Assembly (NCBI GenBank): GCA_014376695.1
Contig: JACMRA010000001.1
Coordinates: forward strand, 1 to 64,000
DNA length: 64,000 bases
Reading direction: 5' to 3'
Source: Minisyncoccota bacterium
Lineage (GTDB): Bacteria; Patescibacteriota; JACMRA01
The notes under the pieces were generated by a model. It ran no database searches. It was not told where the DNA came from and saw only the letters and a program-made list of their open reading frames with translations. The number at the start of each line of letters is the position of its first letter. The stretch's first letter is position 1. The position numbers and the translations under genes are program-made. Below, one piece after another: positions 1-35,977 of this stretch.

Positions 1-948
1 AAATCCTGGAAGATCTTTTGGAGTAACTGTAATCTTATCTGGTGTATCTTCTTTATCTCGTGGTTGTACTGTAACTGGGAAGCTACAAGCTTGACCTCGG
101 ATACAAGTGATTTCTGAACCGTTGATTGTTGGTGGGGTGTTAACTTCAGCTGGTATGACACCGATTTGGCTAAGAATATAACCGTGACCTAGGAATCCAG
201 CTTCGAGACCAGCGGGCTTGAAATTAAATCCAGATGCGCTGGCAAGAGTTTGTCCTGCAAACCGTGAATAGATTGGGTTAGAGTTACCGGTTGAATTGTC
301 AGGGATTTCGTCGGATGGACTTGCTCCTGTGGCTTCGGCAGTTTCTTTTCGTTGAATTGCGTTTGGCCAATTGTTGGTCTGATTCTGGACAATTTGAAGT
401 TTGGTTCCAGCTGGGACATTGACAAATAAGTCGCCGCCATCAGATACAGATGCCAGAGTTCCAACATTACCGCCTGATAATTGAGCGGAAATCTTGAATT
501 GAGTCTCTGAGATTTTGTCTACGTATACTTGTACATTAGGATTAGCAACAGCGGCTGATCCAGGGTTGGCAGTATTCATATAAGACAGCATAATTGAAAT
601 ATTGCCGTTATCTCGACTTACGCTTCGAGGATTGCCGTTAATTGTATCCACCGGGAAAAATGATAGCAGTGGCATATCACTACAAGTAGCAGCGGTTGGG
701 TTTGGCGTATTAAACTTGGTTGTGTACCCGTTGAATGTTGGGGTGGCGGCGCTTGGTGACGGACAATTAGCCGGTTCGCTAGCAGCCAAAGCAAGTTTTG
801 CTCGGTTGGCAATTGAGTCACTTGTGATTAAGTTGACTGCAAAAGTAGAAGTAATTACGAAGAAAAGCATTAGAGCTGCAATACAAACAGCAGTGAATGG
901 ATTTTTCTTATAAAGACTAGTGATGCGATTAAGGATATTTAAGGACAT
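1..948 (-). CDS. Secreted or membrane-anchored protein with Ig/cadherin-like end, partial
   Basis: This reading frame is open from the ATG at 948 to the left edge of the window, so the C-terminus lies outside (at least 316 residues). The N-terminus has a short basic stretch and one strong hydrophobic segment at about residues 18-38, which looks like a signal anchor. The middle is rich in Ala, Thr, Asn, Ser and Gly, as in surface proteins. Close to the window edge the protein has a Pro-Pro-Thr-Ile linker followed by a pattern typical of cadherin-like or Ig-like putative binding domains (alternating hydrophobics, then DLPGF), with a CIRGQAC cysteine pair. A good promoter precedes it (972-1000). 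I infer a cell-surface protein exposed outside the membrane; the specific function cannot be told. Confidence 0.75.
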   Translation of the reverse strand, partial: MSLNILNRITSLYKKNPFTAVCIAALMLFFVITSTFAVNLITSDSIANRAKLALAASEPANCPSPSAATPTFNGYTTKFNTPNPTAATCSDMPLLSFFPVDTINGNPRSVSRDNGNISIMLSYMNTANPGSAAVANPNVQVYVDKISETQFKISAQLSGGNVGTLASVSDGGDLFVNVPAGTKLQIVQNQTNNWPNAIQRKETAEATGASPSDEIPDNSTGNSNPIYSRFAGQTLASASGFNFKPAGLEAGFLGHGYILSQIGVIPAEVNTPPTINGSEITCIRGQACSFPVTVQPRDKEDTPDKITVTPKDLPGF

Positions 949-971
949 ATATAGTAATGGTTTACCATTCT

Positions 972-1000
972 ATCGTAGCACATTTTTAGGAGTCGGTCAA
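972..1000 (-). promoter_or_regulatory. Promoter of the left-edge surface protein gene
   Basis: On the minus strand TTGACC (1000-995), a 17-base spacer and TACGAT (977-972). Predicted start of transcription is near 965, giving a leader of about 17 nt before the ATG at 948. Confidence 0.6.
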
Positions 1001-1073
1001 ATTTATGGCCTTTATCAGTGTTAATTCTAACTATGTTATAGAAATAGCTTTGAGCTTTATTAATATATTAAAC

Positions 1074-2099
1074 CTATTTTATCAGCCCGAGAACTTTTTT
1101 GACTCTGGTAAGTACTATCTCGGCTTGAAGATTGGCTATGACCTCTCCTTTTGCCACGGCTTGAAGAATTACTTCGTCAGTTACGGCCTTATACTTGATT
1201 TGGAACTCAGTCAAAAATTGACCGATGGAGAATGCTACTTCTTTTTTTAGGTCGCCGTAGCGGGTCTGGCCTCGCCATTTGTCGATGATTTGGGCTGTGG
1301 GAGTATCGGTCACAAGAGAGAGGATTTGAAGGAGGTTGGTAATCCCTGGTTGATTATCCCAATCCCAGTTGATTAATTCAAGCGAATCGGTGGTGGCCGA
1401 CATAATTTTTTTGGTGGCAATTTGAGGACTATCGGTTAACAAAATTTTGGAACTCAGATCCGTGCTGGATTTACTCATTTTATTGAGTGGGTTGGTCAGT
1501 GACAAGATATTGAGCGGCTTGTCCATACCGAAGTAGATATTTTGATCTTTGGTAGATTTGGGGACTGTCAAAACCGGCTGGTCAAATTTGTTATTGAAGC
1601 GGATTGCCAAGTCTCGAGCAAGTTCCAAGTGCTGAGTCTGGTCGTAGCCAACTGGCACGTACTCGGCGTCGTAGAGGAATATATCGCCTGCCATAAGAAT
1701 CGGATAAGTAAATAAACCCACATTGATATTCTGATTATTATCAGAGGATTTGTCCTTGAATTGAGTCATCTTGCTAATTTGCCCAAAGTACGAGTAGCAG
1801 CTTAAAAACCACTGCATTTGGGTATGGGCTGGCACGCGACTTTGTCGAAATGTACAAATATTCGGTTTAGTCGTATCGAGACCCGAAGCTAGGTAGATAC
1901 GAATATTATCAAGAACCGCATCATAAAACTTAGCATGGTCAATATCGGCGGTCAAAGAATGTAAATCAGGGACAAAGAGATATAAATTATCTTCGGGGCG
2001 AAGAGTATTGGATTTTTGGACGAGTTGCTTAATACTGCCAAAATAGTTGCCGATGTGGAGCGTGCCAGTGGCTTGTAAGCCAGTTAAAATATTAGTCAT
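1074..2099 (-). CDS. trpS: Tryptophanyl-tRNA synthetase
   Basis: Class I aminoacyl-tRNA synthetase that charges tRNA-Trp with tryptophan. The 341-residue length is normal for bacterial TrpRS. The HIGH-type signature appears as HIGN at residues 15-18 after the usual TGLQATGTLH context, and KMSKS is intact at residues 207-211. The family features GDQTQHLELARD (here GYDQTQHLELARD) and the AGDI region are present. The start codon overlaps the 3' end of ftsW by 8 bases, so the two genes are translationally coupled and share the ftsW promoter. Nothing unusual in the catalytic core. Confidence 0.96.
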   Translation of the reverse strand: MTNILTGLQATGTLHIGNYFGSIKQLVQKSNTLRPEDNLYLFVPDLHSLTADIDHAKFYDAVLDNIRIYLASGLDTTKPNICTFRQSRVPAHTQMQWFLSCYSYFGQISKMTQFKDKSSDNNQNINVGLFTYPILMAGDIFLYDAEYVPVGYDQTQHLELARDLAIRFNNKFDQPVLTVPKSTKDQNIYFGMDKPLNILSLTNPLNKMSKSSTDLSSKILLTDSPQIATKKIMSATTDSLELINWDWDNQPGITNLLQILSLVTDTPTAQIIDKWRGQTRYGDLKKEVAFSIGQFLTEFQIKYKAVTDEVILQAVAKGEVIANLQAEIVLTRVKKVLGLIK

Positions 2100-3441
2100 A
2101 GGTCGGGTTGGTTTTTCTAAAAGTGGGTGTTGTCAGATTATTTGTCAAGATGGTCGGTCGTTGGCTACTGATATTAAGTAGAATCCCCATTGCCAGTAAA
2201 TTTAGCACCAGTGCGGTTCCGCCTTCGGAGACAAATGGTAAAGGAGAGCCTTTGAGCGGGAGAAGGCCAGTGATGCCAGCAACATTTAGAATAACTTGGA
2301 GAAACAGCCAAAAGGCAATTCCCGAGGCCAAAAACTTGCCTTGGATATCGATAGTTTGGTCAGCGATCTTGAGTGAATGGTTAAAAAGTAGTAGATAAAG
2401 TAGCAACAAAAAAGCCACCCCGACAAAACCCAGCTCCTCGCCAACAACCCCAAGAATAGCATCGCTACTGACCTCGGGGATAACCGATTTGGTTTGGGAG
2501 TTGCCGTAACCCTTGCCCCAGAGCCCCCCGGCACTAAGAGCTGAGCGAACTTTGCAAACCTGAAAATTATTGCCCGTGGTATCATTAATACAAGCGGTAC
2601 TAGAATTATTAACAAAATCCAAAAAACTGTTAATTCGGTTAAGTCGATAGGTGTAGTTGGCAATCAAAAGACTAGAAAAGACGATAGCCACCAGAAGGAC
2701 ACCCCCGAGGATTTTGATATCAACACGGGTTATCCACATGGCTCCGATAATTAGCCCCAGCATAAGCAAAGCATTGCCAAGATCCGGCTGAAAAATAACC
2801 AAACCAACAATTGCGGCCAAAATTATAAATGGCGTTTTGAGTTCTTGCCAGTGGATAGTTTCTTTGGTTTCTTTCCAAGAATATCGAGATGGGTTGGCAG
2901 TTACAGTCTTGCCGATGGAGCCAGCGAAAAAAATCAAAATACTAAGTTTAGCTAGTTCCGATGGTTGAAAAGTAGGTAAAAAACTTATATTAATCCAGCG
3001 AATTGCCTGATTGGCATAGACGGGTTTGAACGGTAGCCAACCAAAAGCTTGATTAAAATTTCTGACATTTAGACCAAGAGGGCTTTTGGTAATCAATGAA
3101 TATATAATGAACAAAAATAGATAACTCAAACAAACTAGAGTTACAATTATAAATAAATTCTTGACTTTGAATAGGTTTTGGTAGGGTAAAATGGTGAATA
3201 AATAACACAGGCCGCCCCCAATCCAAATTCCAAAAAAAAGTTGCTTGAGAAACTCGGTAAAATAAGTGGCTTGCGACTGAATAGAAAGGCTTGAGGCCAG
3301 CATAATCAAGCCAAAGATTAGTAAAACCGCTAATAAACCAATTAAATACCAATCAAAATTAAATGGCTGTTTGGTGGCTTCGATTTTGGTATTTGTTTTT
3401 TTTGGGAGTCCAAAATTTAGTTTTAGATTCGGTAGTTTCAT
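2092..3441 (-). CDS. ftsW: FtsW/RodA/SpoVE-family cell-wall glycosyltransferase
   Basis: Polytopic SEDS protein (449 residues, about ten membrane helices) that polymerises lipid II into peptidoglycan glycan strands together with a class B PBP. Family signatures seen: FQPSELAKLSILIFFAG, FQPDLGNALLMLGL, and near the C-terminus PLPFVSEGGTALVLNLLAMG, the hallmark of FtsW/RodA. The N-terminus is short and basic and the C-terminal tail after the last helix is about 30 polar residues. It is the first gene of a two-gene unit with trpS. Whether the division (FtsW) or elongation (RodA) form is meant cannot be settled from sequence alone; the PFVSEGGT wording favours FtsW. Confidence 0.88.
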   Translation of the reverse strand: MKLPNLKLNFGLPKKTNTKIEATKQPFNFDWYLIGLLAVLLIFGLIMLASSLSIQSQATYFTEFLKQLFFGIWIGGGLCYLFTILPYQNLFKVKNLFIIVTLVCLSYLFLFIIYSLITKSPLGLNVRNFNQAFGWLPFKPVYANQAIRWINISFLPTFQPSELAKLSILIFFAGSIGKTVTANPSRYSWKETKETIHWQELKTPFIILAAIVGLVIFQPDLGNALLMLGLIIGAMWITRVDIKILGGVLLVAIVFSSLLIANYTYRLNRINSFLDFVNNSSTACINDTTGNNFQVCKVRSALSAGGLWGKGYGNSQTKSVIPEVSSDAILGVVGEELGFVGVAFLLLLYLLLFNHSLKIADQTIDIQGKFLASGIAFWLFLQVILNVAGITGLLPLKGSPLPFVSEGGTALVLNLLAMGILLNISSQRPTILTNNLTTPTFRKTNPTYD

Positions 3442-3457
3442 AATTGCGATTTATTGG

Positions 3458-3486
3458 ATTGTCGGCGTTCTTGACCGTCTTGTCAA
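3458..3486 (-). promoter_or_regulatory. ftsW-trpS promoter
   Basis: Minus strand TTGACA (3486-3481), 17 bases, GACAAT (3463-3458). It overlaps the oppositely directed promoter of the HIT gene: each -35 hexamer lies in the spacer of the other promoter. Confidence 0.6.
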
Positions 3487-3499
3487 ACTCCGTTAGTAT
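3471..3499 (+). promoter_or_regulatory. Promoter of the HIT-family gene
   Basis: TTGACC (3471-3476), 17 bases, TAGTAT (3494-3499). The predicted transcript starts only a few bases before the ATG at 3508, so the mRNA is probably leaderless or nearly so. Confidence 0.6.
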
Positions 3500-3507
3500 G
3501 GGTAATT

Positions 3508-3903
3508 ATGACCGAATCAATATTTACAAAAATTATTAGAAAGCAAATTCCTTGTCATTTGTTGTACGAAGATGATCTCGTGATAGCATTTCTGGACATT
3601 AATCCAGTGCGACTTGGACATAGCTTAATCGTACCCAAAATTCAAGTGGATTATTTTGTCGATGTTCCGGTCAATTACTATCAAGCCGCTTTTAGTCTAG
3701 CTCAAAAACTAGCCCCAGCTATACAAAAAGCCCTAGGAACAACTCGGATCGGCCTATCAGTTGTTGGAACGGAAGTCCCGCACTTTCACCTACATTTAAT
3801 ACCTATCGAGCAGGATCGAATCGAAGGGATTAGGACTTTTGGGAACGCTGCGGTTCTTGCCCGGCAAGCTGAGTTAATAAGGTCAGTCCTTAATCAAGCT
3901 TAA
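3508..3903 (+). CDS. HIT-family nucleotide hydrolase
   Basis: Small (131 residues) histidine-triad protein, a nucleotidyl hydrolase/transferase family acting on nucleoside phosphoramidates or dinucleoside polyphosphates. The diagnostic HxHxHxx motif is HFHLHLIP with histidines at residues 92, 94 and 96. The N-terminal half has the usual IPCHLLYEDDLVIAFLDINPVRLGHSLIVPK pattern of the family in shortened form. The expected Gly-Gln before the triad (GQ.V.H.H) is replaced by GTEVPHFH, so the family's Gln is missing. The last 21 bases overlap the 3' end of the convergent dnaG-like gene. Exact substrate unknown. Confidence 0.9.
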   Translation: MTESIFTKIIRKQIPCHLLYEDDLVIAFLDINPVRLGHSLIVPKIQVDYFVDVPVNYYQAAFSLAQKLAPAIQKALGTTRIGLSVVGTEVPHFHLHLIPIEQDRIEGIRTFGNAAVLARQAELIRSVLNQA

Positions 3904-11076: not shown

Positions 11077-13653
11077 CTACTTCTCAAAACTTACTCCAGT
11101 CAAAGTACCACTGTTTGGGGCCTCGATTGTCATTGAGATTTTGATCGTGGTGCTATCTTTAGTGCCGGACTGATTGGCTTTATAAATCTGACTATTTTCA
11201 AAGCTTATACCTTTTTCGAATTTGTTGAGATAATCTTCGGTACTAATTGTGTATGAGGTATCGCAAATTCGACCCGTGAAGTTCTTGCAACCAGCGTCTC
11301 TCAATATTATTTTTGAGCTGGTAACCGATGAGGTGTTCATTGGTGTGTTTTCAAGCTTAGTTTTGGGAGTTAGTTTGCCGATGGCGATATTTTTTGGGGC
11401 ATTTGGATGATCCTTATTTGGAATGTTAGTTTCGTAGCTAAAAATAATCTTATCACCAATTTTGTTGTAATTTGCTTCCCAGATTGGGTACTCACTATTA
11501 TTTGATGTGTAGTAAAGTCCGACCCGACGATATTCAGGCCCAGCCGATGAAGGTATCCTGTCCATTTTTAGGTTGGCCGCTTCGTAGCTTACAACACCGA
11601 CATTTACAAAGTTAAGGTCATTAGCCTTATCAAAATTGCTTACATTGATCAAATATAAATTGCTATCCGCATTATTGCCATAAAGCTTAGCCTCGCCTGT
11701 CTCAATCGCAACTCCCACCTTATCGCTGAAGTAGCTGTAATCCGTCTTCTCTTTGGCCAAGAGCTGTTCAACGGTGAAATCAGTGCAGTTAATTGCTTTT
11801 GGATTGACGGAATCGTAGTCTTGGGTTCGCCCCATCCAAACTTCGCCTTTGATATTTTTGGTCTTTTTTAGCTGATCAAAATTCGGTTTATCGTAATCGT
11901 AATTATTGTACAGTTTCCTAGAGAAGCCGCCCAACACCGAGTTGTATAACCTCATACCCTCGAGTAGTTTTAGATCCGCTTCCTTAATTCCATCCTTGGC
12001 AACGACTTTTGAGACGTTGAACCCTAGTAAATTAGTTTCCTTTTGGAGGTCTTGGATTTCGTTAACTAATTGATTGCTACCAGTGATTTCGTTACATCGG
12101 TAATAGACTTGACCATCCAGATTGTATTTGCGATAAATATCCATAACTTTGGCAAGGCGTGCGCCAGTGGATAGGCTGTCAATACCAGTATCCCAATTTG
12201 CGTTAAGACTGGAAGAATTGGTATAGCTTTTTTGGTCGTATTTTGGGTTGAGATGGTAGATAATGTAATTGAAGTTGAGTCCTGAGATAAGAGCCAAAAC
12301 CAGAGCCAGCCAAATAGTTATGGTGCGAAGTTGAATTACCAAATTGGTGTACAAACGCTGACCAAAGTAGGCAGCCAACCCAAGTAAGAAAAGTACAACA
12401 AACAATCCGTAGAGGCGTTTTTGGGTAAAGCCTTGACTTGTAATATAGACCCAGTCTGAGCGAAGGGCGAACAAAGCCAGGAGAATAACCTGCGCCAAGA
12501 GAGCTATGGATACATAAGCACTGAGTACAGTTTTGCGTAAATTAAAGTAAAGAATACTAATAATTATCGTACTAACTACGGATAGTTGGAAAAAGATTTC
12601 GTTACTGTATTTACTCAGATTATAGCCCATTTTGACCAAGTTCTCGGCTGGTGAAATGTAAAGCTGGAGTTGAGCTACGATAAAAAGGGCGACAATTGCC
12701 CCGATCGCAATCTTTGGGATAAGCCAGATTAGATCTCTTGTTGACTCAGGTTTAATCACAGTAGATTTGAGACTCTGGGCGTCTTTTGTGGCTTGTTCTC
12801 GTGTGGCCAAACTAACTAGAGTTCTGGGGCTTCGGTAAGAACCGGCTTCGTAACTATCAAAATCACCGTAATTAACTAATCGAATAATCCGCGGTAAGAA
12901 GAACCAAACTAGAGCAAATATAATTACCCGAACAAAGAAATACCAATTAAAAATCTCGCGAAGAATATCAGTAAGCCAGCTAAGTCGATTGAACAAATCA
13001 TACAACCAACTAAAGTTCCAAAACTTAAAGAAATTATCAATCCAAGTTGCAAATATCGGATTAGCAAAATACAAGAGAGGTACAACAACAACCAAAATAA
13101 AGAAACTAAGAATAAGCCCAACGACTATTCCGCTATAATCTCGATTATAGGTTTTTGGAGTAGGTTTTTGTACAGGTTCGACTGTCGAATTAGTTTGATT
13201 AGTTAATTCTTGAACAGCAGGCAAGATGCGTTTTCGAGGTTGATCGAATAAAATAGCCATTATAACAAGAGGTGCAAACAAGAAAAAAGCCAAGTTATTC
13301 TTAAATCGCTTATCAAATTCAGGCAAAATAGCCCAGCTAAGACAATACATCCAAGATACAAAGGCAAAGACAAGTACCAAACTATCAGTTCGAAGCCCAA
13401 AGATTAGGCTATTGATTATTGCGATACCTATTAGGATATTAGATTGAACGCTTGGAACTGACTTGAATCGCCAAATAATTGCGGTCAAAGTAACTCCAAT
13501 GAGCATCCACCCGAAATATGGAAAGGACTGACTATTAATAGCCATAATCGCAAATAGAAGGCTATAGGCTATGTACATCAAACGAGTTTGAAGTCTAGAC
13601 GAAAATTGGAGCCATTTTGGTAGCTGAATTAATTGATCGGAGTTCGGGTTCAT
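11077..13653 (-). CDS. Large polytopic membrane protein, DUF4173/DUF4153-like
   Basis: 858 residues. The first 520 or so hold about a dozen hydrophobic helices in two blocks (about 20-150 and 175-520) with a basic loop between them; the remainder (about 520-858) is polar, predicted outside, with an internal Cys pair (AGCKNFTGRICD). The layout and several helices resemble DUF4173/DUF4153 proteins, whose role is unknown. I place the start at the ATG at 13653, because the upstream ATG at 13686 lies inside the -10 hexamer of its promoter (13685-13690) and could not be in the transcript. It converges on the uvrC-like gene with 4 bases between stops. The family call is moderate and function is not assignable. 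Confidence 0.7.
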   Translation of the reverse strand: MNPNSDQLIQLPKWLQFSSRLQTRLMYIAYSLLFAIMAINSQSFPYFGWMLIGVTLTAIIWRFKSVPSVQSNILIGIAIINSLIFGLRTDSLVLVFAFVSWMYCLSWAILPEFDKRFKNNLAFFLFAPLVIMAILFDQPRKRILPAVQELTNQTNSTVEPVQKPTPKTYNRDYSGIVVGLILSFFILVVVVPLLYFANPIFATWIDNFFKFWNFSWLYDLFNRLSWLTDILREIFNWYFFVRVIIFALVWFFLPRIIRLVNYGDFDSYEAGSYRSPRTLVSLATREQATKDAQSLKSTVIKPESTRDLIWLIPKIAIGAIVALFIVAQLQLYISPAENLVKMGYNLSKYSNEIFFQLSVVSTIIISILYFNLRKTVLSAYVSIALLAQVILLALFALRSDWVYITSQGFTQKRLYGLFVVLFLLGLAAYFGQRLYTNLVIQLRTITIWLALVLALISGLNFNYIIYHLNPKYDQKSYTNSSSLNANWDTGIDSLSTGARLAKVMDIYRKYNLDGQVYYRCNEITGSNQLVNEIQDLQKETNLLGFNVSKVVAKDGIKEADLKLLEGMRLYNSVLGGFSRKLYNNYDYDKPNFDQLKKTKNIKGEVWMGRTQDYDSVNPKAINCTDFTVEQLLAKEKTDYSYFSDKVGVAIETGEAKLYGNNADSNLYLINVSNFDKANDLNFVNVGVVSYEAANLKMDRIPSSAGPEYRRVGLYYTSNNSEYPIWEANYNKIGDKIIFSYETNIPNKDHPNAPKNIAIGKLTPKTKLENTPMNTSSVTSSKIILRDAGCKNFTGRICDTSYTISTEDYLNKFEKGISFENSQIYKANQSGTKDSTTIKISMTIEAPNSGTLTGVSFEK

Positions 13654-15007: not shown

Positions 15008-15131
15008 TTTATTACCTACTCATACTTATCATCAGGCTCCCACGAATGTAGTTTTATAAGTACAAAATTTATTTTTTTATCGTTAAAATTATATGGACCG
15101 ACACAGGTAAGTACAGCTAGTAAAGAGAAGT

Positions 15132-16892: not shown

Positions 16893-16964
16893 AATAGAAA
16901 CGCTTGTCTAACAGCGATAGTATTAAGTAGAACGGATTTTATTTTTTGGTCAAAGTCCAGTTCA

Positions 16965-18005
16965 TTACGCGACGTTTATTCGCACTACGAACTTATCTCC
17001 TCCCCCCTCAATTGTAATCGCCCACCAATACAATTCTGTACAAATATCTTGACAAATTTTTAGACCCTGGGTTTTTTGCTGGCTTCTTTCTTTTTCAAGT
17101 TTGTACAATTTTTTAGAATTACTAATGATGATTTGGTTATCTTGGGCTTCTATAATCACTGGCTGACTATTGTCGCCGTGCTTGAGACTGTTATCAAGAA
17201 GGTTCCAGAATAATTCTTCGATTAAAGCTCTACGATTAGCACTCATCACATTCCAGTCCTGTTGATTAAGTTCTTGGATTGAAATCTTGAATTCCTGTTG
17301 ATTAGGATTAGACTTAGTTAGACGATTCCAAATGGTTTGAATTAGTTCGGCATTTGACGGGATAAAATCTTCGAGCTGACTTGGGTAAATCTGATGACTG
17401 TCTTGATTGAGTAGATTATTAGCTAGGTTTTGAAGGCGTTTTACCTCATCTTTGCTTTCGGCAAGAATTTGTTGAATTGGTTCGATTTTGGTGAGTACCG
17501 ATCCCAGGCTTAGCTCACTATACAAAATAGCCAGTGGAGTTCGTAGTTCGTGACTTGCCCGTGCCACAAAGTCTTCTCTCTGTATAATACCATCACTTAG
17601 CGGCTTGAGTAGATAGTAGAGAGCCAAATAACTTAAGACCGTCAGAATTATCAAGATTAAAAAATTGGTTTGGAATGTTTCTTGTTCAATTTTTTGCTTT
17701 AGGTCGTTTTGAATATTTTTCTCGTATTCTTCGTATGATTCAGTTTTTCTTATTGGGTCCGGACACATTCCGCTTCGACATGGCGGATTTTCACGGCTGC
17801 TAATCTTGGGTAATCGATCTTGATTATTTTTGCGAATATTTTGATTTCCGCGATACAAGTTACTGGCAAGTATAAAACCGTTGCAGACTAAGACCAGCCC
17901 AACTACAGCAAAAATCAAGGCGGTAATAATTAGTCTAAGTTTTTTGAATTGGGGGCTAAGCTTTGAGCCGGTAACCAAGTCCGCGATGTGTTGTAATGGG
18001 GTCAT
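16965..18005 (-). CDS. Sensor histidine kinase with a shortened ATP-binding domain
   Basis: 346 residues. Two membrane helices (about 25-48 and 114-134) enclose an extracytoplasmic loop of about 65 residues containing a PPCRSGMCPDP cysteine pair. The dimerisation domain has the phospho-acceptor H152 in ARASHELRTPLAI. The ATP-binding part is small: the N box is present (ELFWNLLDNSLKHG, about 240-253), but the usual DxGxG box is reduced to ISNSKK and only a QGLKI remnant of the G2 box remains. The start codon lies within the response regulator gene (50-base overlap), so the two are coupled. It probably phosphorylates that regulator; the unusual nucleotide-binding site leaves the strength of kinase activity open. 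Confidence 0.9.
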   Translation of the reverse strand: MTPLQHIADLVTGSKLSPQFKKLRLIITALIFAVVGLVLVCNGFILASNLYRGNQNIRKNNQDRLPKISSRENPPCRSGMCPDPIRKTESYEEYEKNIQNDLKQKIEQETFQTNFLILIILTVLSYLALYYLLKPLSDGIIQREDFVARASHELRTPLAILYSELSLGSVLTKIEPIQQILAESKDEVKRLQNLANNLLNQDSHQIYPSQLEDFIPSNAELIQTIWNRLTKSNPNQQEFKISIQELNQQDWNVMSANRRALIEELFWNLLDNSLKHGDNSQPVIIEAQDNQIIISNSKKLYKLEKERSQQKTQGLKICQDICTELYWWAITIEGGGDKFVVRINVA

Positions 18006-27726: not shown

Positions 27727-29088
27727 CTAACTAATTACAACCGACTTAATATTCACAAATTCTTTGATTCCGTAATGGCTAAACTCTCGGCCGAAGCCAG
27801 TTTTTTTGACCCCGCCAAATGGCAGGAGTGGATCACCTCGAACCACTGAATTAATATACACATTACCTGACTCAATCTGTGGGATTAAGGTTTTGGCAAA
27901 TTCTATGTCAGCTGTCCAGATACTAGCTCCTAGACCATACTTGGAGTCATTGGCAAGTCTTACCATATCAGATCGGCTGGCCCGAATCAGGCTAATAACA
28001 GGCCCAAAGCACTCTTCAACAAATACCGGCATACTTTGGGTCACTTCCCCGAGAATTGTTGGTTCCATATAATTGCCTGCGCGATCGATAGCTTTGCCCC
28101 CGAGTATTAAAACAGCTCCAAGCTTAATAGATTGATCAATCATTTCTAGGACTTCTGTTCTAGCACGTTCGGAACTAATCGGCCCCATTTGGGTCTCTGG
28201 AAGTAGTGGGTCACCGATGATAATCTGACTGACCTCGATCTTGAGTGACTCGACAAAATTCTCATAGACCGAATCCTCAACAATTATTCGTTTAGGTGCG
28301 TTACAGCTTTGACCACAGTTACGCATACGTGAGGCCATAATCCCGTCAATTACTTTGGTAATATCGCTATCAGCATAAACTAGCATTGGATCGTTTCCGC
28401 CAAGTTCCATTACAGTTTTTTTGATGTGCTTTCCTGCAATTGCTCCGACAGCTGAGCCCGCCCTTTCACTGCCGATAAGACTAATTACTTGCACTGCATC
28501 GTGACTAATTATTTGTTCAGTCATCGTAGTATCGACAAAAATCGTCTGCATAACCCCGGCCGGAAAGCCGGCCTCTTCGAATAGTTCTTGAAGTTTTTGA
28601 CCGATCAGTCCAACATTGGAAGCCGGCTTGAGAACTAGGCTATTGCCAGCTAGGATTGCCGGAACGATCGGCCTAAGAGCTAGATAGAATGGATAATTCC
28701 AGGGTGCAATATGAAATAGCGTGCCAACAGGGTCAAAATGTACGGCCATAAGTTTGGGTGTAGTCTGCACAATTTCGGGAGCCAGCCACAGCTCAAAGTT
28801 ATCAGCAAAGCTATCCGTCATTGAAGCGCACTTATCAATCTCAGCCAAAGCCTGTGTAATAGGGCAACCCATCTCAAGCGTAATTAAACTGGCTAATTCT
28901 TGTCGTTTGTCCCGGAATAATTGGGCTAGAACCTTTGTTAGGGTTTTTCGCTCCGGTAGAGTTGTCTTTGACCAAGACTTTTGGGTGGTTTGGGCAATTG
29001 ATAGTTTGGCTTGAAGCTCGATTGAGTCGATAGTTGGAATTGTGCTAACGACTTGATTATTGGCAGGATTGGTTGAGATATAGGGCAT
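27727..29088 (-). CDS. Aldehyde dehydrogenase, succinate-semialdehyde type
   Basis: 454 residues from the ATG at 29088, the typical length of the short SSADH subfamily. Signatures: PWNYPFYLALRPIVPAILAGNSLVLKPAS (cofactor binding), the catalytic glutamate in VMELGGNDP and the catalytic cysteine in RNCGQSCNAPKR, plus FGPVISLI and the C-terminal PFGGVKKTGFGRE. It oxidises an aldehyde to the acid with NAD or NADP; the substrate is not certain. A frame continuing upstream to 29286 would read through a palindromic repeat and lies ahead of the promoter at 29098-29126, so it is rejected. Transcript nearly leaderless. Confidence 0.93.
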   Translation of the reverse strand: MPYISTNPANNQVVSTIPTIDSIELQAKLSIAQTTQKSWSKTTLPERKTLTKVLAQLFRDKRQELASLITLEMGCPITQALAEIDKCASMTDSFADNFELWLAPEIVQTTPKLMAVHFDPVGTLFHIAPWNYPFYLALRPIVPAILAGNSLVLKPASNVGLIGQKLQELFEEAGFPAGVMQTIFVDTTMTEQIISHDAVQVISLIGSERAGSAVGAIAGKHIKKTVMELGGNDPMLVYADSDITKVIDGIMASRMRNCGQSCNAPKRIIVEDSVYENFVESLKIEVSQIIIGDPLLPETQMGPISSERARTEVLEMIDQSIKLGAVLILGGKAIDRAGNYMEPTILGEVTQSMPVFVEECFGPVISLIRASRSDMVRLANDSKYGLGASIWTADIEFAKTLIPQIESGNVYINSVVRGDPLLPFGGVKKTGFGREFSHYGIKEFVNIKSVVIS

Positions 29089-29097
29089 AGTCTTAGC

Positions 29098-29126
29098 AAG
29101 ATAACGGGCAAAGCAGAGTTTGTCAA
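29098..29126 (-). promoter_or_regulatory. Aldehyde dehydrogenase promoter
   Basis: Minus strand TTGACA (29126-29121), 17 bases, TATCTT (29103-29098). Transcription would begin about 3 bases before the ATG at 29088. Confidence 0.6.
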
Positions 29127-29168
29127 AGGCGGTGTTATTGCTTAAAAATGTTGTCCTAGCTCTTGAAT

Positions 29169-29275
29169 TTATACCCCGTCCACTGCGTGTCCACCCCTTT
29201 AGAAAAGGGGAATTTTTGAACAGTCCCAATTCCCCTTTTTCAAAGGGGTGGCAGTCGTAGACTGACGGGGTATAA
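29169..29275. repeat. Nested palindromic repeat, REP/MITE-like
   Basis: About 107 bp with 12-bp perfect terminal inverted repeats, TTATACCCCGTC (29169-29180) and its complement (29264-29275). Inside are two further inverted pairs: CCACCCCTTT (29191-29200) with AAAGGGGTGG (29242-29251), and AAAAGGGGAATT (29203-29214) with AATTCCCCTTTT (29229-29239 region). The whole can fold into a cruciform or long hairpin. The CCCCTTT/AAAGGGG core looks like repetitive palindromes seen in many environmental genomes; no transposase is present here. Confidence 0.75.
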
Positions 29276-29284
29276 CTTGCCAAC

Positions 29285-29312
29285 AAAACAAAAAACCAGC
29301 CTTTAGAGCTGG
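29285..29312 (-). terminator. Terminator of the small gene at 29386-29613
   Basis: Minus strand stem CCAGC (29312-29308) and GCTGG (29300-29296), loop TCTAAAG, followed by TTTTTTG. It ends a roughly 75-base structured 3' untranslated region. Confidence 0.8.
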
Positions 29313-32012: not shown

Positions 32013-32580
32013 ATGAGAGAAAGTCCGATGGCGCTAGATCAGTTAGGTTGTTATAAAGGAAAAGGGAATGTAATGGTGGTCTTACCAGTTTTTTTGGCCG
32101 GATTTTTACAAGGATCCCCGTTAGTTCGCTCAGCCGTCGATGGAAGTGCCTGTCGAAAAAATGGCCCTGGCAACATCAATCTTAGTAGTTATGACTTAGG
32201 TCATATGGTAATCACCAAATATAGATGGGAATCATATACCCAAATTTTTTGCTAAGATTGCTAATTGTTATAATGAAGAAGGTATTGATGGGGTTATCAA
32301 AAAAAATTTTGTAGCACCTAAAGAAGGGACTGTGTACGACTCGCTTAGATCGCAAATGAGCAGCTACTCAAAAAAATTTAAGTTTGAAGTTGACCCTAGT
32401 CTGGCTTTCGGAGTTACTGAACAAATGGTAGGGGCCACAAAGGCCGGTATAATAGGTTCGCTTTCAGGGTATAATAAATCTAGGACTTTTTTTTCAGATA
32501 ATTACGGGGGCGAGGATATTATTGGTGCTTTACTTTGGTTTAGTCTTCAAACCGCTGTTACTAAAGATAGAGGTAATTGA
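32013..32580 (+). pseudogene. Hypothetical gene broken by a frameshift
   Basis: Two reading frames follow each other and look like parts of one protein. The first (32013-32255) has a hydrophobic stretch (MVVLPVFLAGFL) and ends QIFC; the second continues in the +1 frame from about 32218 (IDGNHIPKFFAKIANCYNEEG) to the TGA at 32580. Removing one base near 32218-32222 would give a single protein of about 188 residues. The second half is glycine-rich with a DNYGGEDIIGALLWF end. No family recognised. Cause may be real decay or a sequencing error. The stop codon overlaps the -35 of the first copy of the phosphoketolase promoter. Confidence 0.5.
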
Positions 32581-32708
32581 CCCAAATCCAAAATTAGGTT
32601 ATAATAGGCCAATCTACCCCCTATGTCTCAGAATCTAGCCCACGCAAGTCAGCTTTTGGCCAAGTGGCATCGCCTGACTAATTATGTCGCCGCCGCAAGC
32701 CTTTATCT
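32576..32708 (+). repeat. Direct repeat copy 1: phosphoketolase promoter and 5' end
   Basis: 133 bp matching 33564-33696 without gaps. I count eight differences, seven of them between the -10 and the ATG and only one in the coding part. Both -35 (TTGACC) and -10 (TATAAT) are intact in this copy. Confidence 0.92.
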
Positions 32709-32775
32709 GATAAAAATTCTGTCACTAGCTCGAACAGGGAATTTGACTTATCGCTTGGTAGCGACAAGGGTTTGA
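32623..32775 (+). pseudogene. Truncated duplicate of the phosphoketolase start
   Basis: The first 29 codons repeat the phosphoketolase N-terminus (MSQNLAHASQLLAKW and onward) with one change (Ile to Val), then the frame runs into unrelated DNA for about 21 codons and stops at 32775, inside the 3' end of the methyltransferase gene on the other strand. With an intact promoter in front it may be transcribed toward the methyltransferase, producing antisense RNA. It has no catalytic part. Confidence 0.8.
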
Positions 32776-33416
32776 GTTTGTATAGTATTTTCTCCGTCGT
32801 TAATGGTAGACTTGGTATTGTTGGTTGTAGATCTTGAACTAAAGTGAGTTAAGATATTCCAACAGTCCTCACCAAAAAAATAACGAACAAAATCTGGATT
32901 GGTTCTTTGTTCAGGCTTTCTGTTGCTTATCTTGAGGCAATACCTAAGTATTATCCTTCCCTCAGGTTTGACCATTGATTGCATTTTTTTTATTGCGTCA
33001 GCTTGATCTTTGACATTTTCTAACTCTTCTAAAAGACCTGAAGATACCACTAAATCATATTGGTTACATTCCGTGTATGTTAGTATATCGGCTTGAATTG
33101 CAGTAACGACTAAGCCCTCTTCTTTGGCTCTGCGGTCAATTAAATCACGTCCTGTGCTAGATATTTCAATAGCAGTAACTACTAATTTTGGATTTCTAGC
33201 TAACTCAATTGCGTATCTGCCATTGCCAGAAGCGATATCAACCAATGTTCGTGACTGGGTTACACCTTCAAGTATATACCCCAAAATATCTTTGCTGGGA
33301 CTGCCAAATCCATCAGGATTACCTGTCCATATATCGCTATAGTCTTTTGGTACCTTTGAGTTTAAGTATTTTATATTTGAGGGGGGGGTAAAAGTGTGAT
33401 TGATTTGATCGAGCAT
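32748..33416 (-). CDS. Class I SAM-dependent methyltransferase, inserted gene
   Basis: 222 residues. The Rossmann methyltransferase core is clear: motif I LVDIASGNGRYAIELA (about residues 58-73), an acidic end of strand 2 in VTAIEIS, motif with a following aspartate (AIQADIL) and YDLVVSSGLLEEL as post II. The substrate is unknown; the N-terminal DIWTGNPDGFGSPSKDI is unlike RNA or DNA methylases I know. Codons 10-12 contain a run of eight C (33381-33388 on the plus strand as G), so slippage would abolish the protein. The gene lies in reverse orientation between two copies of the phosphoketolase 5' region, which marks it as a later arrival. Confidence 0.82.
   Translation of the reverse strand: MLDQINHTFTPPSNIKYLNSKVPKDYSDIWTGNPDGFGSPSKDILGYILEGVTQSRTLVDIASGNGRYAIELARNPKLVVTAIEISSTGRDLIDRRAKEEGLVVTAIQADILTYTECNQYDLVVSSGLLEELENVKDQADAIKKMQSMVKPEGRIILRYCLKISNRKPEQRTNPDFVRYFFGEDCWNILTHFSSRSTTNNTKSTINDGENTIQTQTLVATKR
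33381..33388 (-). repeat. Homopolymer tract C8 (minus strand) in the methyltransferase gene
   Basis: Eight G on the plus strand, that is eight C in the coding strand, within ACCCCCCCCTCA near codon 11. Long G/C runs are rare in such AT-rich DNA. Confidence 0.9.
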
Positions 33417-33563
33417 ATAAACTATATAAACACCATAAACTGTATATAGTCAATAAATATTTTCAACTTGTTGTAAGTAATTGATTAAAATCAGCTAAAC
33501 GCGAACTATAACTTAAAATAAAAAACAAAACTTTGTTAGCAATTATTTAGAATATTCAATATC

Positions 33564-33696
33564 ATTGACCCAAATCCAAAATTAGGTTATAATGAGTCAA
33601 TCCATCATCTATGTCTCAGAATCTAGCCCACGCAAGTCAGCTTTTGGCCAAGTGGCATCGCCTGACTAATTATATCGCCGCCGCAAGCCTTTATCT
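33564..33696 (+). repeat. Direct repeat copy 2: functional phosphoketolase promoter and 5' end
   Basis: Partner of 32576-32708, offset by exactly 988 bases. This copy continues into the complete phosphoketolase gene. Confidence 0.92.
33565..33593 (+). promoter_or_regulatory. Phosphoketolase promoter
   Basis: TTGACC (33565-33570), 17 bases, TATAAT (33588-33593), leader about 11 nt. The same hexamers are kept in the duplicate at 32577-32605. Confidence 0.75.
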
Positions 33697-35977
33697 CCAA
33701 GATAATTTTTGGTTAGAGACCCCGCTCAAGTCTGAGCATATTAAGCCGCGTATTCTGGGCCATTGGGGAACTGTTCCTGGAATCAATCTGATTTACGGCG
33801 GTTTAAATTTGCTAATCAAAACAACTAATCAATCAACAATTTTTGTTGCGGGTCCTGGGCATGGGGCGCCTGCGGTTTTGGCTAATTTGTTTCTCGAGGG
33901 GACGCTTAGTCGCTTTTATCCTAATATTACTTACGATAAGCAGGGTTTGGAAAAAGTTATCAAAGCCTTTTCTTGGCCAGGTGGCTTTCCATCGCATACT
34001 TATCCAGGTCTTCCTGGGTCGATTAACGAGGGCGGGGAGCTTGGGTATTCGCTTGGCGTGGCTTTTGGGGCGGTGATTAACAAGCCTGATTTGATGGTGG
34101 CTGTGGTTATTGGCGATGGTGAGGCCGAGACTGGAGCTTTGTCAGCCTCGTGGATGTCGAATCGTTTCTGGAACCCAGTTGCTGATGGATTTGTGCTGCC
34201 GATTGTCCATATTAACGGTTATAAAATCTCCAATCCGACCATTTTTGGGACTATGCAGAGCGATGAATTGATCAAATATTTTGAGGGTTTTGGTTATGCC
34301 CCGATAGTTGTTGATCAAGATAATTTAAGCGGGCCTGATATTTATAATGAGTATCTAAGTAGCCTCGGCGAGGCTTACAATCAGCTGCAGAAACTTCGCT
34401 CCAATTATTCCAAAGGCCGAGTTAAATCGCGTATCCCAGTAATTCTTCTGCGGACACACAAGGGCTGGACTGGCCCAAACTACAACGGTCAAATCAAGCT
34501 CGAAAACAACAATTATTCCCACGGCATACCCCTCCAAAAACCAAAAAAAGATCAAGATGAACGCCAAATCTTAGAAAACTGGCTCAAAAGCTACAAAATT
34601 CAAGAACTTCTGACCGAGGAGTTTATCCAATCCAATCTCTTGGAAATTTTGATGACCAATCCTGACTTGCTAATGGGCAGTAACCCACTCTCTGGTATAA
34701 CGCCCGTTGCGGAGTTAATTTTGCCTGATATTGATGACCTTTATATCCAGATTGACAAGCCCGGCCAAAAAGCCACTAGTGAGCTCAAAGAGTTCGGGAT
34801 TTTGATAACTCGACTTCTTGAGAATAGTCATAATCGGCAAAACTTTGTGGTATTTAGTCCCGACGAATCGGAATCCAACAAGCTAGAGGGGTTATTCGAA
34901 GTCACTTCCAAAAAATTTTTGTGGCCAATTCGAAACTGGGACAAAGACATTGAGGACACTGGAAATGTCCTAGAAATCCTAAGCGAACAAACCCTCCAGA
35001 GCTGGATGCAGGGCTTTGTGATGACTGGTGGTTACGGGGTGTTTATTAGCTATGAGGCTTTTTTGGTGATCATAACCAGCCAAATAGACCAGTACATAAA
35101 ATTTACTCGCCAGTGCAACGAGTTTGAATGGAGGCAGCCAGTGGCCAGCCTTAATTATATTGCGACCTCAACGCTCTGGAGGCAAGATCACAACGGTTTT
35201 ACTCATCAAAACCCTAGTTTGATCAACAGTTTATTAACCAAAAAAAGTCCAATGATTGATGTTTATTTTAGTCCGGATACTAATTGCATGCTAGCTATCG
35301 GCCAAAAAATACTACCCTCTAAGTCCAAAATTAACTATGTAGTTGCGGGGAAAACTGATATTGCCGACTGGCTGACAATGGATCAGGCTCGCGAGCAAGT
35401 TGAGGCAGGGATTATGGAATGGGAGTTTGCTAGTAATTACAGAGGCTGCGAGCCAGATATAATTATTGGGGCTGCTGGTGATTATCAGACGCTTGAGACC
35501 CTGGCTGGGATTAGCTACCTCAACGACAAGTACCCAAAACTCAAAATCCGTTACCTCGGAATTAGTAGCCTTCATTGTCAAGGGTTTGGTACCAGCGATA
35601 AGCCGCTCAAAAGCTCAGATTTGGGTCAGTATTTTGGGGTCGCCAGTACGCCAGTTTTGATTAATTTTCATGGTTATCCAGAAGCCCTTGGGCAATTAAT
35701 TTACGGTACAGAACTCAGTATGCGGACAAAGATTATTGGTTATAATGAGTGCGGAACTACAACCACACCATTCGATATGCAAGTTCTCAATGGAACAAGT
35801 CGCTGGCATGTGGCAATTCTAGCACTGCAAACAATCAAGGAGCCGAATTTAAGAGTCGGGGAATTAATCCAGGAGTTAGAAGCCAAGTTAGACGCCCATA
35901 GAAAATATATCAAAAAATTTGGCGATGACTTGCCTGAGCTTAAGGATTGGCAGTTTAGCGCCATTACAAGTGCATAG
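33611..35977 (+). CDS. xfp: Phosphoketolase (xylulose 5-phosphate/fructose 6-phosphate)
   Basis: 788 residues, the full length of the family. A thiamine-diphosphate enzyme that splits xylulose 5-phosphate, and often fructose 6-phosphate, with phosphate to acetyl phosphate plus a C3 or C4 sugar phosphate. Signatures: HWGTVPGINLIYGGLN, the GPGHGAPAVLANLFLEGT segment, FSWPGGFPSHTYPGLPGSINEGGELGYSL, and the thiamine-binding GDGEAETG...N. The central E for cofactor activation lies in the second domain. No acetate kinase is next to it in this window. It would be the main fermentative entry of pentoses in a genome with a reduced glycolysis; gpmI at 7642 is consistent with use of the lower glycolytic branch. 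Confidence 0.97.
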   Translation: MSQNLAHASQLLAKWHRLTNYIAAASLYLQDNFWLETPLKSEHIKPRILGHWGTVPGINLIYGGLNLLIKTTNQSTIFVAGPGHGAPAVLANLFLEGTLSRFYPNITYDKQGLEKVIKAFSWPGGFPSHTYPGLPGSINEGGELGYSLGVAFGAVINKPDLMVAVVIGDGEAETGALSASWMSNRFWNPVADGFVLPIVHINGYKISNPTIFGTMQSDELIKYFEGFGYAPIVVDQDNLSGPDIYNEYLSSLGEAYNQLQKLRSNYSKGRVKSRIPVILLRTHKGWTGPNYNGQIKLENNNYSHGIPLQKPKKDQDERQILENWLKSYKIQELLTEEFIQSNLLEILMTNPDLLMGSNPLSGITPVAELILPDIDDLYIQIDKPGQKATSELKEFGILITRLLENSHNRQNFVVFSPDESESNKLEGLFEVTSKKFLWPIRNWDKDIEDTGNVLEILSEQTLQSWMQGFVMTGGYGVFISYEAFLVIITSQIDQYIKFTRQCNEFEWRQPVASLNYIATSTLWRQDHNGFTHQNPSLINSLLTKKSPMIDVYFSPDTNCMLAIGQKILPSKSKINYVVAGKTDIADWLTMDQAREQVEAGIMEWEFASNYRGCEPDIIIGAAGDYQTLETLAGISYLNDKYPKLKIRYLGISSLHCQGFGTSDKPLKSSDLGQYFGVASTPVLINFHGYPEALGQLIYGTELSMRTKIIGYNECGTTTTPFDMQVLNGTSRWHVAILALQTIKEPNLRVGELIQELEAKLDAHRKYIKKFGDDLPELKDWQFSAITSA

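Follow-up and report, generated by a model that had tools for sequence, protein, structure and literature searches.

How a lone methyltransferase gene came to lie between two copies of the beginning of a phosphoketolase gene is the question raised by this locus, which sits in a 64,000-nucleotide stretch of DNA (hereafter the window) from a probably metagenomic draft assembly of 956 kb in 16 contigs, estimated to be 78% complete; the window belongs to contig 15. Alignment and BLASTN reproduce the gap-free 133-bp pair with eight differences that a sequence-only reading had described: the copies, at 32576-32708 (copy 1) and 33564-33696 (copy 2) on the plus strand, are direct repeats spaced 988 nt apart and 94% identical (E = 4e-52), and a search of the whole draft genome finds no other such pair. 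Their edges are sharp, as the DNA flanking both copies fails to align. Each copy starts one base ahead of a promoter and extends as far as the second base of phosphoketolase codon 29, a leucine codon in both; the earlier reading was right to place a promoter in each, but its "first 29 codons" are in fact 28 complete codons plus two bases of the next. Copy 1, comprising the promoter, a 17-nt leader and the first 28 2/3 codons, halts there as a truncated gene, while copy 2, with the same promoter, leader and first codons, runs on into the intact phosphoketolase. Between them lie 855 bp of insert-specific DNA (32709-33563; 35.0% GC vs. 40.0% for the window), in which the sole open reading frame of at least 75 aa, at 32748-33416 on the minus strand, is the reverse-oriented methyltransferase already recognized as the only gene there. 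Counting one repeat, the added unit amounts to 988 bp; neither the ORF list nor the Pfam domains reveal an integrase or transposase in the 855 bp, and no inverted repeats are found at the insert ends.

The flanking genes suggest which copy belongs to which side of the older locus. Upstream, a gene here called X (32013-32580, plus strand, with a reading frame taken from the sequence and one frameshift near 32220) has no match in Pfam, NCBIfam, PHROGs or PADLOC, and its C-terminal part is without a relative; its stop codon (32578-32580) shares bases with the -35 hexamer of copy 1, as if gene X, promoter and phosphoketolase had once been contiguous, so that the original left flank would adjoin copy 1 and the original right flank copy 2. 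Downstream, the full-length phosphoketolase (Pfam XFP, 788 aa, 33611-35977, plus strand) is followed by a Nudix-type and a D-Ala-D-Ala-ligase-like open reading frame, both named from their sequences. Since both the promoter and the coding sequence of phosphoketolase are complete from copy 2 onwards, the insertion, judged from the sequence, is self-restoring and leaves that gene intact. Elsewhere in the window, an imperfect palindromic repeat of ~110 bp at 29166-29282 overlaps the first codons of a long aldehyde-dehydrogenase-like open reading frame (27727-29286); it has further copies on contigs 2, 5, 13 and 14, with 15 matches counting both strands, and appears to be a MITE or a comparable small dispersed element.

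The cargo encodes a 222-aa class I SAM-dependent methyltransferase by its Pfam match (Methyltransf_25/11, E about 1e-12), with an intact motif I (VDIASGNGRYAIEL) and, at 33439-33466 on the same minus strand, a weak candidate promoter recognized by consensus match (TTGAAA-16-TACAGT, 9/12). Its GC content of 37.8% is not unusual for the window, where 27% of same-sized segments are equally low, and its GC3 is 31% vs. 46% for phosphoketolase. The gene is single-copy in its own genome; 10 relatives give only weak matches of at most 30% identity, a search of 380 genomes of the phylum returns nothing but the gene itself at E 1e-10 or better, and no close relatives appear in plasmid, phage, IMG/VR and genome collections at the sensitivities used. 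We regard it as foreign-looking and presumably acquired from outside. With respect to substrate, NCBIfam, PHROGs and PDB yield only generic class I matches, far under curated cut-offs. A role in defence was considered and rejected: the PADLOC match to mad2 (E = 7e-15) spans only residues 54-180, which correspond to the generic methyltransferase fold, and none of the methyltransferase's neighbours supports such a role.

The differences between the two copies provide further insight into their origin. They fall at repeat positions 31, 32, 34, 40, 42, 44, 45 and 111, and the earlier observation that most lie between the -10 hexamer and the start codon holds: seven of the 17 leader bases differ, as opposed to none of the 29 promoter bases and one of the 86 coding bases, the last being a nonsynonymous change (V22I), with none of the ~19 synonymous sites affected. 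Uniformly placed differences would cluster this strongly with a probability of about 2e-5, and the leader stands out both against the coding part (P = 7e-6) and against synonymous sites (P = 0.002). Because the differences are too clustered for neutral decay, the copies are more likely two different alleles than the product of plain ageing of one duplicate. Furthermore, a truncated copy, once formed, is released from coding constraint; the leader patch is therefore most likely older than the insertion and reflects donor and recipient alleles that differed, or else a single multi-base change produced it. Ordinary allelic divergence does not fully explain the patch, as some synonymous differences should then be seen too. 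Template switching was also tried as a cause of the leader patch and rejected, there being no nearby 10-11-mer donor and just one direct and one inverted 9-mer match.

Together, these features lead us to consider it somewhat probable that a one-homology insertion-duplication brought the methyltransferase in beside phosphoketolase; from the two-copy structure present in the assembly we infer the event, its donor and its direction. In the older locus, gene X would most likely have been followed directly by the phosphoketolase promoter and gene. A related cell would have supplied donor DNA with the methyltransferase immediately upstream of a phosphoketolase promoter that differed slightly from the resident one, and this donor would have recombined via the common promoter and 5' region of phosphoketolase. 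Its other end, 3' of the methyltransferase, would have been fused to codon 29 of the resident gene by a non-homologous joint. Either a ~1-kb fragment would have circularized and then integrated by one crossover, or the DNA taken up would have undergone homology-facilitated illegitimate recombination (HFIR). In either case, phosphoketolase would now use copy 2, leaving copy 1 as a truncated remnant whose intact promoter faces the methyltransferase.

Both routes have precedents, and the locus carries marks of each. Linear DNA in E. coli can circularize and integrate by single crossing-over, and HFIR, a process of transformable bacteria, is described in the same paper (PMC3240628). Direct repeats of resident sequence bracket unrelated DNA here, one per flank, as a single crossover leaves them; at the same time, one end has the non-homologous joint of HFIR, in that the flanks at 32708/32709 and 33696/33697 cannot be aligned. 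At the right-hand edge, no clear instance of the 3-10 bp microhomology typical of an illegitimate joint is apparent, apart from a GATAA match displaced by 4 nt. The geometry therefore fits the single-crossover integration of a circular donor put forward in the sequence-only reading, but a linear donor with homology at one end and illegitimate joining at the other fits it equally: the two routes give the same product, and the final sequence cannot separate them. As in Campbell-type insertion-duplication, single-copy foreign DNA lies between direct repeats, with one complete and one truncated gene (PMC3240628), whereas the present case is natural and lacks a selectable plasmid backbone, its putative circle is only 988 bp, and its two copies probably come from different alleles. 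The likeness to HFIR resides in one homologous and one non-homologous end and in the acquisition of about 1 kb (PMC3240628); however, the usual HFIR product is an insertion with a deletion (PMC3240628), and in place of that deletion a 133-bp duplication is seen here. Since published HFIR products usually carry deletions, we lean slightly towards the circle route, the 133-bp duplication favouring a circle or a sister-chromosome joint. HFIR has also been proposed for effector-module displacement in Vibrio (PMC5361080), and the displacement of orphan modules in Rhs, CDI and T6SS loci resembles the present arrangement in adding genes beside a conserved homologous anchor and leaving a displaced remnant (PMC5361080); those systems exchange the 3' end of a toxin gene, whereas the present locus has gained a second 5' end of a gene for a metabolic enzyme, which itself is unaltered. 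As for uptake, competence of the source organism is plausible: the genome encodes a ComEC-type competence protein, although this family also matches in genomes with no known transformation, and natural competence has been demonstrated in Saccharibacteria (PMC10633639).

Several other origins have to be weighed against insertion-duplication. Transposon insertion was discarded, in agreement with the earlier argument that the repeat is too long for a target duplication: 133 bp stands against the ~2-14 bp that transposons leave, and neither transposase nor terminal inverted repeats are present. It is also very improbable that the structure is an artefact joining two metagenome strains at the promoter. 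An incomplete 16-contig draft, probably from a metagenome, leaves room for such joins, but the two copies have no exact run in common longer than 65 bp, and every 66-mer of the region is unique. Two contigs of the assembly are identical over exactly their first 141 bp, from which the assembler can be taken as a de Bruijn one with a final k of about 141; at that k the copies have no common k-mer and could not be confused, which largely removes the worry of an assembly duplication raised beforehand. In addition, a homology-driven misjoin would not make the unrelated junction at 32708/32709. Tandem duplication of a segment running from the promoter through a downstream methyltransferase, followed by loss of most of the first phosphoketolase and of the second methyltransferase, is the strongest rival and still an unlikely one. 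It dispenses with a foreign donor, and partial tandem duplications are common in bacteria (PMC3784515), but it takes at least three events, phosphoketolase is now without a downstream methyltransferase and the genome without a second copy of that gene, and the clustered differences misfit plain ageing. Among the distant relatives compared, we found neither an empty site nor a donor arrangement with the methyltransferase beside phosphoketolase and no copy 1. These genomes of the phylum are mostly 0.5-1.4 Mb and up to 2 Mb in size; the nearest phosphoketolase-bearing ones, all from outside the genus, show about 50% protein identity and different gene neighbours, and six relatives with a phosphoketolase at 40-50% identity have neither the methyltransferase nor a duplicated 5' end beside it. 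A search of the genome contig collection likewise returned no close phosphoketolase relatives.

Site-specific integration of a small target-restoring element, with its recombinase lost or acting in trans, would account for the exact rebuilding of the target promoter and gene start, and the slight differences between the copies resemble element-borne restored ends. The dusA islands are known to integrate where a protein-coding gene begins, at its 5' end (PMC4482086), and the locus is like them in this respect; those islands carry their own integrase, however, and the unit here has none. With no recombinase gene in the 855 bp, no second integration of the unit in the genome, and, by eye, no common recurring attachment sequence in the other gene-end duplications described below, we judge such an element improbable. 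Finally, the arrangement might have been selected for regulation, with copy 1 retained as a promoter that sends transcripts antisense across the methyltransferase. The copy 1 promoter (TTGACC-17-TATAAT, 11/12 to consensus, 32577-32605, plus strand) is perfectly conserved, being identical to that of copy 2 (33565-33593, plus strand), and is aimed into the antisense strand of the methyltransferase. Antisense transcription is possible, since the intact promoter faces that gene with no terminator-like site found between them. Nevertheless, promoter identity is equally expected from a recent origin, no structured RNA was found after copy 1, and the fold between copy 1 and the methyltransferase is unremarkable; that the arrangement was selected for this purpose thus seems a far-fetched reading, to be ranked as low as the assembly artefact.

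If insertion-duplication gave rise to the phosphoketolase locus, the process appears to recur in the genome and its relatives, as similar gene-end duplications around cargo occur elsewhere in both. We took a census of direct pairs of at least 45 bp and at least 85% identity lying 0.4-6 kb apart, in the window and sixteen further stretches (357 kb, about 37% of the genome), and found seven pairs, as well as 15 in 760 kb of five relatives. Several of them copy a gene end with cargo between the copies, so that what the sequence-only reading had suggested other loci might hold is indeed present within this part of the genome, at comM, PIN and polymorphic-toxin genes. On contig 16 (stretch L040), a second copy of the last 46 bp and stop codon of a comM-like (Mg-chelatase ChlI) gene lies 1.9 kb downstream (15055-15103 and 16936-16984, 92% identity), with three minus-strand open reading frames between, one of them encoding a TPR protein. 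On contig 8 (L032, 11842-14771), a PIN-domain gene has 75 bp of its 3' part duplicated at a site 2.8 kb upstream (91% identity), and at least three genes of no known function lie between the copies. A polymorphic-toxin-like locus on contig 14 (L038, 11257-13545) has an identical 136-bp direct repeat (12158-12293 and 13121-13256), where a conserved segment (MAFSHPDVFLGITQVA) reappears as the beginning of another C-terminal module that differs from the first, an arrangement resembling Rhs/CDI orphan modules. In the relatives, three loci (L059, L060 and L077) copy gene 3' ends. Integrases, paralogy or other causes may account for some of the repeats at these other loci. Two further arrangements were noted in passing: on contig 9 (L033, 546-1244), two tandem open reading frames have an 84-bp, 87% identical 5' segment, comprising the leader and first codons of the likely starts, and different bodies, and L040 also contains a long tandem array of ~0.3-kb repeats (148-3690) near a contig end; contig 12 begins with a match to this array.

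With other loci positive, the phosphoketolase case becomes less special, and we regard it as a clear but largely ordinary gene acquisition, probably through a known kind of insertion-duplication. A broader proposal is that members of the phylum with small genomes repeatedly gain one to a few genes without a recombinase, via ~50-140 bp of a resident gene end and with each event rebuilding its target; the only homology in such a route would be that gene end, carried by the donor DNA alongside the cargo. At present we consider a general route of this kind doubtful. The locus nonetheless preserves gene acquisition as a clean fossil, in a lineage with little-studied gene-transfer routes, and its significance, modest when taken alone, would rise if a census of the phylum showed a general recombinase-free route. 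Were such arrangements common in the phylum and tied to competence, they would offer a sequence signature for counting DNA uptake events in uncultivated bacteria.
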